DNA from: Glutamicibacter sp. PS
GTDB lineage: Bacteria; Actinomycetota; Actinomycetes; Actinomycetales; Micrococcaceae
Assembly (NCBI GenBank): GCA_031317595.1
Contig: JANCMB010000001.1
Location: forward strand, 1,358,971-1,422,970
DNA: 64,000 nucleotides
Direction: 5' to 3'
A program made the translations under genes and the position numbers. Below are positions 21,170 through 26,551 of this stretch, piece by piece (position 1 is the first letter of the stretch; the number at the start of each line of letters is the position of its first letter). The notes under the pieces were generated by a model that had not been told where the DNA came from, ran no database searches, and saw only the letters and a program-made list of their open reading frames with translations.

Positions 21170-23110
21170 CTATTTTTCGCCCACGGTCAGCGAAGCGTCG
21201 CCGGAGGCGGTGTGCTCCGGATTCTGCTCATGTTCGTGCTGAATCTTGCCCGGCTGCAGGGTGCGGGTGATATCCCCCGGCTTGACTAGATCGATCTCCC
21301 CGGTGGCCTGCAGATACCACTCGGTCAATTGCGGGTCCTCGGTATGTAGCCCGGCCCCGGCTCCCTCTTCCTTATCCACCGCGGTGGCGTTGAAGACGAA
21401 GTCATCGCCGTAGTCCTCGATGCCACGGCGGATACCCTGGGCGATGGCCGCGTGGGCGAACTTGGCCCGCAGGATATAGGGGTCGGTGCGCAGATCCCGC
21501 CACCAGGCCACGATAATCCCCATCACCACGAAGGCGAAGGGCAGCGCCGAAACAACCATCAGCGACTGCAGGCCGCTGAGCCCCTCCTCACCACCGGCCA
21601 GCAGCAGCGAGGCGGCGGTCAAGCCCAACAACAGGCCCCACACCACGGTGACCCATCGCGAGGGTTCGGGCCGGCCACGCTGGGACATCGAGGCCATCAC
21701 GATCGAGGCCGAGTCGGCCGAGGTGATGAAGAAGACCACGATGGAGACCAGCGCGATAATGGACAGCACGGTACTACCGGGCAAGTTATCGAGCAGGGCG
21801 AAGAGCATGGCCTGCGGCGAACCGGCATCGCTGATGCTCTGACCGGTCATCTCCATCCACATCGACGTACCGCCGAAAATGGAGAACCAGAAGAAACACA
21901 CCAGGGCCGGGACAATGATGACCACGGTGACAAATTCACGCAGCGTGCGGCCGCGCGAAATCTTGGCGATAAACAGCCCGACGAACGGCGTCCAGGTCAC
22001 CCACCACGCCCAGTAGTAGGTAGTCCAGCCGCCCATAAACTCGGCGGCCTCGGGACTCTGATTCGGGTTGCGCATCAACATGGTAAACAAGTCGCCGAAG
22101 AAGGCGGCCATCCCTGCGGGCATGAAGTTCAATAGGTACAGCGTCGGGCCGACCAGGAAGATAAACAGCGCCAGCAGCCCGGCCAACACCATATTCAGAT
22201 TCGACAGCGCACGGATGCCGCGCTTGACCCCGGAGACGGCCGAGAGGATGAACATAACGGTCAGCAGGGTGATGGCACCAATGAGGAAGGCGTTGCCCAC
22301 CGGGCCGGCCCCGGTGACGACCTCGTAGCCGCGCCCGATCTGCAGCGCTCCGATACCCAGGGAGATCGCGGTGCCAAAGAGGGTGACGAGGATGGCAAAA
22401 ATATCGATGGTCGCCCCGATCGGACCATGGGTGCGACGCCCAAAAATCGGCTCGAAGATCGAAGAGATCAGCGGCGGGCGTCCACGACGGTAGGCGCTAT
22501 AGGCGATGGCCCCGCCCACCAGCGCGTAGTAGGCCCACGCGATCGGGCCCCAGTGCAGCATGGTTTGCGCCATAGCATCGTGCATGGCGTCCGGGGTTCC
22601 GGCCGTTGACTCGAAACCATAGGGCGGGTTCTGGAAATACACCAGCGGCTCGTAGGGACCATAGAACAGCAGACCAATGCCAATACCGGCCGAAAACAGC
22701 ATCGCCACCCACGAAACGGTGGAGAACTCGGGTTTTTCCTCATCCGCGCCCAGGCGGATCCCGCCGGTGCGTGAGTACCCGACGATGAGCATGAACACCG
22801 CGATGGCCACCGAGAGCAGCCCGAACATCCATCCAAAATTCGTGGTCACCCAGGACAGGGCGATCCCACCGACGCTGGAGACCGAGTCCGGGGCGAAGAC
22901 GGCCCAGAGAATGACCGCGAGGATCAGCGCCCCGGAGAGGGCAAAGACGAGCTTATTGGTCCGAAAGTCTTGGCGGGTCGATTCGACCCCGATTCCTGGG
23001 ATCAGGGCCGGGTGCACCAAGCCGGGTTGCGTAAATTCCTTGAGCAGCTTGCGCATCGGGGGGCGACTGCGCGCCGTGGCTTGCTCCTGGGGTTCGTTAT
23101 TCTCTGCCAT
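21170..23110 (-). CDS. BCCT-family carnitine/betaine/choline transporter
   Basis: The 646-residue protein has twelve predicted membrane helices and hydrophilic tails of about 50 residues N-terminal and 110 residues C-terminal. The Trp-rich segment GGWTTYYWAWWVTWTPFVGLFIAKISRGRTLREF is the BCCT signature in helix 8, and ISRGRTIREF-type continuation is intact. BCCT carriers move quaternary ammonium compounds with Na+ or H+ or by exchange. Its position 58 bp behind the carnitine-degradation genes on the same strand suggests L-carnitine uptake. The substrate is inferred from context. Confidence 0.9.
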   Translation of the reverse strand: MAENNEPQEQATARSRPPMRKLLKEFTQPGLVHPALIPGIGVESTRQDFRTNKLVFALSGALILAVILWAVFAPDSVSSVGGIALSWVTTNFGWMFGLLSVAIAVFMLIVGYSRTGGIRLGADEEKPEFSTVSWVAMLFSAGIGIGLLFYGPYEPLVYFQNPPYGFESTAGTPDAMHDAMAQTMLHWGPIAWAYYALVGGAIAYSAYRRGRPPLISSIFEPIFGRRTHGPIGATIDIFAILVTLFGTAISLGIGALQIGRGYEVVTGAGPVGNAFLIGAITLLTVMFILSAVSGVKRGIRALSNLNMVLAGLLALFIFLVGPTLYLLNFMPAGMAAFFGDLFTMLMRNPNQSPEAAEFMGGWTTYYWAWWVTWTPFVGLFIAKISRGRTLREFVTVVIIVPALVCFFWFSIFGGTSMWMEMTGQSISDAGSPQAMLFALLDNLPGSTVLSIIALVSIVVFFITSADSASIVMASMSQRGRPEPSRWVTVVWGLLLGLTAASLLLAGGEEGLSGLQSLMVVSALPFAFVVMGIIVAWWRDLRTDPYILRAKFAHAAIAQGIRRGIEDYGDDFVFNATAVDKEEGAGAGLHTEDPQLTEWYLQATGEIDLVKPGDITRTLQPGKIQHEHEQNPEHTASGDASLTVGEK

Positions 23111-23168: not shown

Positions 23169-23624
23169 TCACCCGACCCGTCGACCACACCAGCTCGGCG
23201 GATCGGCCGCGGCCCGCCGCGCGGCATCTTGGGCGGCGTCCGGCAGGGCCACGCTCCGTCCCGACTGCTGCTCGACGTGGAGCCCGAGGATCTCCTCGGT
23301 GGCCACCAGCTCCTCGCCGCGATACATCTCATGGGCCAGGTGCACCTTCTTCTCCCCGTGTCCGGTCAGCACGGTGCGAACCGTGAGACTCTGGCCCAGG
23401 CTGACCTCCGCGAGGTAGCGCACATGCGCCTCCACGGTATACAGCGAACACCTCGTACGTTGCCGGTAGTCGGCGTCCAGCCCCAGTCGGTCCATCGCCG
23501 CATCGGTGGCAAAACCGAAGACCAGCACATAGTAGGCCTCGGACATATGGCCGTTGTAGTCGATCCACGACTCGTCGACGACGGTCGCATAATCGCTGAA
23601 GACGCTTTCGGATGCTAGGTTCAT
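23169..23624 (-). CDS. cdhB: Hot-dog thioesterase, probable betainyl-CoA thioesterase (CdhB-like)
   Basis: The 151-residue hot-dog enzyme carries the WIDYNGHMSEAYYVLVF motif with the catalytic-aspartate region of 4-hydroxybenzoyl-CoA thioesterases. Its ATG overlaps the stop of the dehydrogenase gene (ATGA at 23621-23624). In the characterised carnitine pathway CdhC forms betainyl-CoA and CdhB hydrolyses it to glycine betaine and CoA. In several Proteobacteria the thioesterase is fused to the dehydrogenase; here it is a separate protein. Specificity is inferred from the operon. Confidence 0.8.
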   Translation of the reverse strand: MNLASESVFSDYATVVDESWIDYNGHMSEAYYVLVFGFATDAAMDRLGLDADYRQRTRCSLYTVEAHVRYLAEVSLGQSLTVRTVLTGHGEKKVHLAHEMYRGEELVATEEILGLHVEQQSGRSVALPDAAQDAARRAAADPPSWCGRRVG

Positions 23625-24568
23625 CGCTGTCCCCCGGCCAGTTTGCGGATCGCCACGATCCCCGCGTCGCGTTCGGCGACCAGGTCGGCGAAGCTACGTT
23701 CCCCGGCGGCCAAGTCACAACCGGCCACCACGGCATCACGCAGCTGCCCGGTCAGTTCCGGGGCGAGCAACCGGGTCCACGGTGACTTCAGCGAGGGACC
23801 AAAATGATCAAGCATATGGGCCATGCCGCCCTCGCCACCGGCTAAGTGGAAGGTGAGCATCGGGCCGTGCATCGGCCAACGCAAGCCGGGACCGTCGGTG
23901 ATCGAACGGTCAATCTGCTCGACGGTCGCCTCGCCCTGATCAATCATGTGAAGCGCCTCGCGCCAGAGCGCCTCCTGTAGCCGGTTCGCGATGAACCCGG
24001 GCACCTCGCGCTCCATCAGGATCACCGACTTGCCGATCAGCTCGTAGAACTCCGCCGCCCAGCGCACGGCGGCCGGGTCGGTCAGCTCCCCGCCGACCAC
24101 CTCCACCAGCGGAATCAGGTACGGCGGGTTAAAGGGGTGCCCGACCACGAAACGCTCCGGATGCACCAGATTCACCGCCATCTCGGTCATCGGGTAGCCC
24201 GAGGTCGAGGAACCGATGACGACGTCGGGTGCGGTGAGCTCATCGAGCTCGGCGAAGAGCTCGCGTTTGAGTTGCAGATTCTCCGGGGCGGATTCCTGCA
24301 CGAACCCGGCATCGGCCACCGCCTCGGCGAGATCACGGTGCACCGTAAAGGCACTCTTGTCGGCACCTTCGACCATGTCGAGCTCGGCCAACGCCGGCCA
24401 GGCCGCGTCGATGAGTCGACCAAGTTTCTCCGCTGCATCTTCGGCCGGATCCCAGACCTTCACCCGGTAGCCGCGGGCCAGGAAGTATGCGGCCCAGCCG
24501 CCGCCGATGGTACCGGCACCGACGCAGGCGATGGTGTCGATGCTCGAGGCCGAACGTAGCGCGGTCAT
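23621..24568 (-). CDS. cdhA: L-carnitine dehydrogenase (3-hydroxyacyl-CoA dehydrogenase family, CdhA-like)
   Basis: The 315-residue NAD-dependent enzyme oxidises L-carnitine to 3-dehydrocarnitine. The Rossmann motif G17-A-G-T-I-G22 follows [62 protein letters not shown] is the family catalytic region with the conserved H-P-F-N-P-P, and [24 protein letters not shown] is the C-terminal dimer domain. An acyl-CoA-dehydrogenase role is less likely given the adjacent BKACE and thioesterase genes. It is ATGA-coupled on both sides. Confidence 0.85.
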
Positions 24569-25470
24569 GAGGCGTCTCCGGTCGGGAGCTGTACCTTGAG
24601 GTTGAGGATCTCACGGGCCTCGGCCGGGGTGGCCACCTGCGCACCGAGGTTTTCGATGATGCTCACGGCCCGGTCGGTCAGCTGCGCATTGGTGGCCTTC
24701 ACTCCCTTGGACAGATACAGGTTATCTTCCAGCCCGACCCGCGCATGCCCACCGGCGAGTACGGATTGTGCGACCCAAGGCAATTGGTTGGCGCCAATGG
24801 CGAAAGAGGTAAATTCGGCCCCCTTGGGGAGCAATTGCACCATGGCTTGTAACAACCCTGCATCGACCGGCGCTCCATAAGGGATGCCCATGCACAGCTG
24901 GTACAGCGGCGGCGGATCGATCAGGCCCTCCTGCACCATCACGTTGGCGAACCACAGATTGCCGGTGTCGAAGATTTCAAGTTCCGGGCGCACACCCAAT
25001 TCCTGAATGCGGGCCGCACCCTCGCGCAACATATCTGGGGTGGAAACATAGAGATTACTCCCCTCGCCGAAGTTCAACGACCCACAGTCGAGGGTGCAGA
25101 TTTCGGGAAGCAATTGCTCCACATGCGGCAACCGCTCGAGGCCGCTGACCAGATCGGTGCCCGGAAGGTGCGTCGTGGGATGATGCGGGTCGATGACCAG
25201 ATCCCCGCCCATCCCGGCGGTCAGGTTCAACACCGGGTCAACCTCGGCGGCGCGGACCCGTTCGACGACCTCGCGGTAATACTCCACCTTGCGCGAGCCG
25301 AGCTTCGATTCCGGGTCACGGACGTGGATATGCACCACCGAGGCGCCGGCGCGGGCGGCGGCGATCGCGTCATTGGCGATCTCCTCCGGCGTGACCGGCA
25401 CGAATTCGCTTTTTCCGGTGGTGTCCCCTGCCCCGGTGACGGCACAGGTCAAAATGACTTTTCGGTTCAT
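24565..25470 (-). CDS. cdhC: BKACE-family 3-dehydrocarnitine cleavage enzyme (CdhC-like)
   Basis: The 301-residue TIM-barrel enzyme belongs to the beta-keto acid cleavage (BKACE, formerly DUF849) family. In carnitine degradation it reacts 3-dehydrocarnitine with acetyl-CoA to give acetoacetate and betainyl-CoA. The zinc ligands sit in [11 protein letters not shown] (H47, H49), and [25 protein letters not shown] is the family mid-region. [29 protein letters not shown] is the C-terminal signature. ATGA overlaps link it to the regulator upstream and the dehydrogenase downstream. Confidence 0.87.
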
Positions 25471-26405
25471 GGTTCGGCTCCATTCCGCAAGGAGGTCGGC
25501 AAATGGTGGTCGGTGGGTAAGGAGGTCGTCCAGCGCGCTTCGGCTCGTGAGCCTTGCACGGCAAGGCAGCGGCGTAAGTAGTCCTGCAGTCCGCGAGCCA
25601 TGGCCGGAGCCTCGATCACATGGGTCAGCACCTTGATGCCATAGCCATCAACCAGCGAGGTCAGTTCGGTGGCCATGGCTTCGGCGTCCCCGGCCCGGAA
25701 CAGTCCTTGCCGTTGCCCGTCCTCGATGGTGCTGCGCACGGTAGCGACCCACCGCGCATAGCTCTCGAGATATGCCGGGTTACGTCGCCCATCCACGGTG
25801 ATCTTGTTCCAGGTCTGCAACCAGATGGACCATTCCATTTCGGCGGTGTGCCCATCGGGAGACTGCAGTTCGAGCAATCGGGTCAGCCGCTCGGCCGGGT
25901 CGCTGACATCACTCAGCCAGGCAACCTGCCGGTCGTAGGCCAGCTTGACCGAGTACGCCATGGCCGCGGTGTGAAGATCCTGCTTGGTCGGGAAATAATA
26001 GTGCACGGTCGCGCTCGATACCCCGGCTTCGGCGGCGATATCGACGATCCGCACCGACTCGAAACCCTGCTCGGCGAAAAGGCGCCAGGCCGCTTCGGTG
26101 ATTTTGCGATGCTTTAACTTCTGATCAGCCGAGCGCGAGGGATGCCCGGAACTGGGCGTCGCCGGCGGATCCGCGGAGACGGCCGAGGATTGCTCGCCCA
26201 TAATCCAGCTGACCGTCACTCCGGTGGCCATCGCCAGACGCAACAGCTCGTCGGCCGTAAAGCGTCGCAGTCCCTTGAGTGACTTAGATAGCTTGGTTTC
26301 TTCGATATCCGCCTGCGTGGCGATGTCACGTTGCGAGCTTCCGCTCTTCTTGATGGCAAGGCGCACTCGGTCGGCGAGCGCACTACCGGTCAACGTCGTT
26401 GGCAT
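25467..26405 (-). CDS. Dual-domain XRE-TetR transcriptional regulator of the carnitine operon
   Basis: The protein (312 residues from the ATG at 26403-26405) has two DNA-binding domains. An XRE/Cro-type helix-turn-helix covers about residues 8-70 ([41 protein letters not shown]). After a Ser/Pro-rich linker (71-95) comes a TetR helix-turn-helix at about 99-145 ([43 protein letters not shown]) and a BetI-like ligand domain. It is the first gene of the operon, its stop overlapping the cdhC ATG, so autoregulation is expected. A GTG/ATG-initiated extension to 26441 would run into the operator and is less likely. Confidence 0.85.
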
Positions 26406-26434
26406 GACAGCCAGCCTAGGCGCGGTTCGCGCAG

Positions 26435-26471
26435 ATCGCAAGTTTTTTGATGCTTAGTCAAAAATTGCGAT
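26435..26471. promoter_or_regulatory. 37-bp nested inverted repeat, predicted operator of the carnitine operon
   Basis: The outer arms ATCGCAA (26435-26441) and TTGCGAT (26465-26471) enclose the inner arms TTTTTGA (26444-26450) and TCAAAAA (26458-26464) around a 7-bp centre. On the minus strand it includes TTGACT, a good -35 element, so a bound repressor would block RNA polymerase. Two arm sets fit a regulator with two DNA-binding domains. Confidence 0.65.
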
Positions 26472-26516: not shown

Positions 26517-26551
26517 CCCCCGAAGGCGACCGGTTCGGTCACCTTCGGGGG
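26517..26551 (-). terminator. Terminator of the helicase gene
   Basis: The arms CCCCCGAAGG and CCTTCGGGGG continue inward as GACCG/CGGTC with one mismatch, forming a stem of about 16 bp just after the helicase stop at 26570. It also separates the helicase from the carnitine operon promoter. Confidence 0.8.

Follow-up and report, generated by a model that had tools for sequence, protein, structure and literature searches.

A carnitine-type operon in the window, by which we mean the whole 64,000-nucleotide stretch of Glutamicibacter sp. PS DNA analysed here, begins with a gene whose product appears to join an XRE helix-turn-helix to a complete TetR-type regulator. This raises the question of whether a single chain has two working DNA-binding heads and, if so, which DNA sequences they read. 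The genes concerned are as follows.

25467..26405, minus strand: XRE-TetR two-headed regulator, 312 aa, the operon's first gene
24565..25470, minus strand: beta-keto acid cleavage enzyme (BKACE, 315 bits)
23621..24568, minus strand: L-carnitine dehydrogenase-like protein (3HCDH_N; best NCBIfam match L-carnitine dehydrogenase at 326.9 bits, under the cut-off of 414)
23169..23624, minus strand: hotdog thioesterase, resembling the C-terminal part of fused carnitine dehydrogenases (4HBT_2, 102.3 bits; NF005716 positions 349-475, under its cut-off)
21170..23110, minus strand: BCCT transporter for betaine, carnitine or choline (BCCT, 560.8 bits)

Overlaps of 4 nt join the regulator gene to the BKACE gene, the BKACE gene to the dehydrogenase gene and the dehydrogenase gene to the thioesterase gene, after which the BCCT gene follows. 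The enzymes correspond to the established route from carnitine through 3-dehydrocarnitine and betainyl-CoA to glycine betaine. A GC-rich hairpin (CCCCCGAAGG...CCTTCGGGGG, window positions 26517-26551) that looks terminator-like by eye separates the operon from the helicase-like gene upstream.

The regulator's reading frame is uninterrupted from the ATG at 26405 to the end of the stop codon at 25467, and its 312 residues divide into the following parts.

26202..26387, minus strand: XRE (Cro/C1-type) helix-turn-helix head, residues 7-68 (from HTH_31, AlphaFold2 and conservation)
26130..26201, minus strand: flexible linker, residues 69-92 (pLDDT of about 50 over 71-90)
25971..26102, minus strand: TetR helix-turn-helix, residues 102-145 (TetR_N)
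25563..25898, minus strand: BetI-type ligand and dimer domain, residues 170-281 (TetR_C_6)

The first-pass annotation had described an XRE head fused to a full TetR regulator with a BetI-like C-terminal half, and this description stands. Pfam profiles place both TetR parts above their cut-offs (TetR_N, 56.4 bits against 24; TetR_C_6, 63.1 bits against 27), and the C-terminal half has the all-helical TetR fold. Of the two heads of this protein, only the TetR head is recognized above a profile cut-off, as HTH_31 scores 26.2 bits over residues 10-64 of the XRE head, 0.8 bits under its cut-off of 27, and HTH_3 scores 18.1 bits over residues 15-68, under its cut-off of 23. When 38 XRE-TetR proteins were scanned singly, all matched TetR_N (E <= 1e-3) and TetR_C_6, and 37 also matched HTH_31 (E <= 1e-3; best 2.5e-10), so that the weak XRE score appears to be a peculiarity of this single sequence. 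AlphaFold2 folds the XRE head into five helices (residues 7-21, 25-31, 36-43, 51-61 and 65-68) with a mean pLDDT of 88-96 across residues 11-70, and places the low-confidence linker between it and a TetR body at 93-283. Conservation points the same way, with K38, L39, S40, L43, G45 and R47 of the XRE head and H135 and F138 of the TetR recognition region invariant in 38/38 XRE-TetR proteins. Used alone as a sequence query, the XRE head finds Protein Data Bank entry 4ICH at 1.4e-10, the next match being the ICEBs1 Xre regulator at 0.051; fold searches with the model returned TetR folds only among the matches listed. Profiles, model and relatives together support a single chain with two intact DNA-binding heads, encoded by the first gene of a carnitine-type operon. 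An amine cage specific to the fusion was considered and rejected, since W195, W199, Y216 and W219 are equally conserved in 24 TetR-only and 105 fused relatives.

A mis-called start, a frameshift or an artificial joining of neighbouring genes, any of which would have undone this picture, can be set aside. Along with the intact frame, the same domain order recurs in relatives at 33-77% identity, which argues against a local frameshift or wrong start, and a start further upstream is unlikely because the -10 element TAGGCT sits 7 nt before the ATG in a leaderless layout repeated in relatives. Nor is the XRE head the oddity of a single strain, as relatives are found in Micrococcaceae, Nocardiopsis, Saccharopolyspora, Prauserella and Streptomyces. 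In a scan of named genomes we kept the best 80 of at least 413 relatives, a sample that is no census because it was ranked by similarity to the query; it comprises 66 XRE-TetR and 14 TetR-only loci. A BKACE gene is present at 58 of these 66 XRE-TetR loci (59 counting a fragment at L096) and at 0 of the 14 TetR-only loci; seven of the 66 are without it. In the class-level set, 28 of 394 genomes matched at E <= 1e-25, both heads being present in 19; in the family-level set, 43 of 395 matched at E <= 1e-30, counting TetR-only copies and one broken copy; and in the genus-level set, 3 of 18 matched, the source genome included. The broken copy (L013, in genome G033 of the same family) has an internal stop and lies in a 2.6-Mb genome. 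Among plasmids, the only match was one of 44 bp. In a tree of the TetR halves, 24 TetR-only rows form one group with support 97/74 (midpoint root); one locus treated as TetR-only there by the E-value limit, L086, is really XRE-TetR (E 1e-8) and was counted as fused when the aromatic residues were compared.

We analysed 71 regions upstream of XRE-TetR genes, namely those of the window, L009-L012 and the 66 named loci, the other XRE-TetR loci of the class-level set lying outside this collection. Two regions were kept out of the motif counts, L015 because it comes from the genome of L045 and L128 because it was taken as identical to L043, and L013 is in no motif set. Close relatives are among the 71, for example several Streptomyces globisporus-like strains, and the regions are not independent. 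A de novo count of 7-letter words, made over 72 regions with the duplicate L015 included, is the unbiased part of the motif evidence: ATCGCAA occurs in 47 regions and ATCAGTC in 34, with 2.8 expected for each. These most enriched words belong to two palindromes, a TetR-like one, TGACTGATNNATCAGTCA (motif A), and an XRE-like one, TTGCGATTNTCGCAA (motif B). At least 12 of 16 motif A positions are matched in 52/71 XRE-TetR regions and at least 11 of 14 motif B positions in 66/71, with both motifs in 47/71; because the consensus was drawn from the regions being scored, these counts measure enrichment and are no independent test. Dinucleotide shuffles gave 7/1420 for motif A and 19/1420 for motif B, and random windows of the same loci gave 2/643 and 3/643.

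The relatives that lack the XRE head separate the two motifs. Motif A precedes 14/14 TetR-only genes and motif B 0/14, so motif A is common to fused and unfused relatives and motif B accompanies the XRE head. Likewise, TTGCGA or TCGCAA is found in 48/71 XRE-TetR regions versus 0/14 TetR-only regions, and the broader TTGCGR/YCGCAA in 63/71 versus 2/14 (once each), at a mean per region of 2.25 versus 0.14, with 0.33 in shuffles. Five genomes of one other family (L182-L186) served as a second control; they carry BKACE-dehydrogenase-thioesterase operons with carnitine dehydrogenases at 66-69% identity, and have no XRE-TetR match at E <= 1e-25. In these fusion-free operons motif B precedes BKACE in 0/5 cases (best 9/14 within 1 kb), and neither TTGCGA nor TCGCAA occurs within 1 kb upstream of BKACE; the nearest upstream TTGCGA is 1.7 kb away in one, and there is none upstream in the 12-kb stretches of the other four. 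Motif B thus seems to track the fused regulator and not the pathway. Because the TetR-only rows form one tree group and the control operons come from one family, the contrast between fused and TetR-only genes, and with it the link of XRE head to motif B, may rest on single evolutionary events. One of the control operons (L183) has a motif A-like site (14/16) at about -52 before BKACE, which would suit a TetR-only regulator. At L051, L055, L056, L058, L059, L061-L064, L066-L069 and L071 the BCCT gene is divergent from the regulator gene with motif A nearby, so motif A may control the transporter there too. Two TetR-only loci, L093 and L107 (Kutzneria and Amycolatopsis), adjoin an opposite-strand gene with ATP-grasp and Succ_CoA_lig domains (acyl-CoA ligase-like), with copies of motif A in between, an arrangement that represents a regulon other than carnitine.

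One possible explanation for motif B is that the XRE head plays no part in reading TTGCGA, which would be no more than a -35 element or would be bound by another regulator of carnitine genes. We consider this unlikely, even though TTGCGA does stand at the -35 position, 16-18 bp from TANNNT, and the contrast with TetR-only relatives could reflect the single event mentioned above. Motif A, which begins 52-189 bp ahead of the gene (sites with at least 12 matches), is flanked by half-sites as well. TTGCGA/TCGCAA is missing upstream of all 14 TetR-only relatives, and motif B upstream of all five fusion-free carnitine operons. The seven XRE-TetR loci without BKACE keep motif A in 7 cases and motif B in 5.

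The position of the half-sites relative to motif A suggests a nested arrangement. Motif A has TTGCG or CGCAA no more than 12 bp away in 42/60 regions (motif A at 11 or more), and on both sides in 20/60, against a shuffle expectation of 4.5% for any flanking half-site and 0 for both sides, and against 0/14 in TetR-only relatives. A recount with slightly different limits gave 43/60 flanked and 21/60 on both sides, with 0/37 sites in TetR-only relatives; 17/60 motif A sites lack a neighbouring half-site. Among the two-sided forms TTGCG-A-CGCAA is the most frequent (13/60), in seven cases with 31 bp from start to start, or about three helical turns. Half-site orientation varies, with TTGCG-A-TTGCG in 7/60. 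Across 394 genomes, a strict version of the nested pattern has a single hit, before the XRE-TetR gene of G388; since the remaining 18 of the 19 XRE-TetR genes in this set go undetected, the pattern is specific and not sensitive. The suggestion made from the window alone, that a two-headed regulator could bind a nested or asymmetric site, is supported by these composite layouts, which precede fused genes and are absent from TetR-only relatives.

Since this protein design co-occurs with a matching two-part DNA site before the gene, it is most likely that both heads act together in reading a single site. An alternative is that one head alone works on DNA, either the XRE head as reader with the TetR helix-turn-helix as a ligand-sensing scaffold, or the reverse. 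At the thresholds used, 19/71 regions have motif B without motif A and 5/71 have motif A without motif B, as such a division of labour might produce; the invariance of the residues listed above in both recognition regions and the 47 regions that hold both motifs make it improbable, somewhat more so than the promoter-element explanation.

The window itself has a version of this arrangement before the regulator gene, with the following predicted elements.

26465..26471, minus strand: distal XRE-type half-site ATCGCAA of a putative composite operator (invariant in the window, L009, L124 and L125)
26444..26464, minus strand: inner inverted repeat TTTTTGA-CTAAGCA-TCAAAAA, putative TetR-head site (7/7 arm bases pair)
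26435..26441, minus strand: proximal XRE-type half-site TTGCGAT, holding the -35 element TTGCGA (invariant in the same four loci; TTGCGA-17-TAGGCT)
26413..26418, minus strand: -10 hexamer TAGGCT, 7 nt before the ATG, with a predicted leaderless transcript (from promoter spacing)

In minus-strand order the site runs ATCGCAA (26471-26465), TTTTTGACTAAGCATCAAAAA (26464-26444), AC and TTGCGAT (26441-26435). Pairing of the inner repeat has a shuffle p of 0.002, for a palindrome that was chosen by eye before scoring. When the window, L009, L124 and L125 are aligned, the invariant letters are those of both arms, TGAC, TCA and, in the -10 element, the TA and the final T; much else drifts. The window site does not fit motif A (8/16, with a null mean of 9.2) and reaches motif B barely at the limit (11/14); on its sequence, the inner repeat is read as a diverged version of the central palindrome. 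Its arms point outward, whereas those in Streptomyces point inward. With 17 bp between TTGCGA and TAGGCT and 7 nt between TAGGCT and the ATG, the operon is predicted to give a leaderless transcript beginning with the ATG; the 7-nt spacing is shared by L009, L123-L126, L131 and L141.

We also inspected 31 loci from the window's own family, its MAG and Cryobacterium (L045), a set that shares seven loci with the 71 (the window, L009-L012, L043 and L045). A layout of half-site, spacer and TTGC promoter is present at 26 of the 31, and five gave no composite. The spacer is palindromic at p <= 0.05 in only 8 of the 26 composite loci. In 21 of the 26 the -35 TTGC is completed by TCGCAA or GCGCAA into a contiguous XRE-type palindrome (strings read by eye); among the 26 composite loci inspected, this palindrome is absent from the window's clade (the window, L009 and L124-L126). 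A scan of the source genome for ATCGCAA-N15..30-TTGCGAT found three places, namely the predicted operator, L151 inside an ORF, and L149. A wider regulon of the composite site in this genome was set aside on these grounds.

The reading that best accounts for these observations, to which we give a probability of roughly 0.7, is that the protein is an autoregulated repressor of the carnitine operon, responsive to a quaternary amine, whose two heads read a composite operator. A TetR-type dimer would bear an XRE head on each N-terminus through the flexible linker of about 24 residues. We infer that the TetR heads would read the central palindrome, which is TGACTGATNNATCAGTCA in most relatives and TTTTTGA-N7-TCAAAAA in the window, and that the XRE heads would read the TTGCGA half-sites flanking it, or the contiguous palindrome TTGCGATTNTCGCAA on the -35 box. 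The window's parts would then make up one 37-bp composite operator, with the -35 element contained in the proximal XRE half-site. In TetR-DNA complexes the N-termini lie at the outer edges; here they would lie at the outer edges of the inner repeat, from where the XRE heads could extend to the arms on their linkers. A flexible linker would also permit half-site orientation to vary between clades. Bound regulator would exclude RNA polymerase, because the proximal arm holds the -35 box. A trimethylammonium compound of the carnitine pathway would occupy the BetI-like pocket and, by distorting the TetR heads, free the site, inducing the operon together with the regulator's own gene. It is improbable that the XRE head instead serves protein-protein contacts (in oligomers or with RNA polymerase) and that the regulator is an activator, as the Pseudomonas carnitine regulator CdhR is (PMC5806209). 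The predicted operator covers the window's -35 box, which favours steric repression, and proteins of the BetI type in the TetR family are mostly repressors.

More tentatively, at odds a little short of even, the homodimer would present four heads of two unrelated kinds to a nested operator, with the TetR heads at the centre and the XRE half-sites about three helical turns apart; the XRE pair would also close on the contiguous -35 palindrome, and the regulator may shuttle between, or bridge, nested and promoter sites under the control of carnitine. In most TetR repressors described, each chain has a single DNA-reading head. Here a head from another family has been added and the operator differs accordingly, motif A being shared by fused and unfused relatives and motif B going with the fused ones. 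The family would offer a natural experiment in which a regulator and its operator gained a new half together. It also supplies predicted operators for the carnitine operon across many actinobacteria and points to a modular amine sensor for use in synthetic biology.

The closest solved homologue is 4ICH from Saccharomonospora viridis, which matches residues 10-276 (E 5.6e-67). Because the match spans these residues, the 4ICH chain is also XRE-TetR; because its 193 modelled residues (entry numbering 93-285) align only to 94-283 of the model, its XRE head is unseen, and a mobile head would explain that absence. The S. viridis protein (4ICH, 4KWA, 4JNN and 4NEL) was deposited as a putative TetR regulator, with only the TetR part modelled in 4ICH. 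By analogy, the ligands of the sister entries support a pocket for small amines: choline in 4KWA, an amine given with an incomplete name (N,N-dimethylmethanam...) in 4NEL, and benzamidine in 4JNN. No carnitine-bound entry was among the matches listed, and the titles listed for these four entry codes included no paper on the S. viridis regulator. The supposition that the architecture has no published example holds in part: no description of an XRE-TetR regulator was found among the matches listed from the openly licensed PMC literature, but the architecture is not unseen before, being widespread in Actinomycetes and represented in the Protein Data Bank by the homologous chain 4ICH since 2013.

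Among characterized regulators, the choline-responsive TetR repressor BetI has the BetI-type C-terminal domain in common and perhaps a similar ligand class. BetI has one DNA-binding domain, and the protein studied here scores 60 bits against a cut-off of 201.3 for the BetI equivalog TIGR03384 (NCBIfam). The likeness to CdhR of Pseudomonas aeruginosa is one of function, as CdhR governs the catabolism of carnitine to glycine betaine; it is an activator of the GATase-1-like subfamily of the AraC family and acts on GGTCGC repeats (PMC5806209), whereas the present regulator is XRE-TetR, with neither an AraC helix-turn-helix nor a GATase-like domain among its 16 Pfam matches up to E 1. Higher-order binding by XRE proteins is described for the Xre-RES complex of P. 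putida (PMC12204516). The nearest TetR protein with two helix-turn-helices that we found is Mce3R of Mycobacterium tuberculosis, a TetR-type chain whose two non-identical helix-turn-helices read one non-palindromic site (PMC11667970). Mce3R consists of two fused TetR units, whereas the regulator described here has a single TetR_N stretch and joins an XRE head to one TetR unit.
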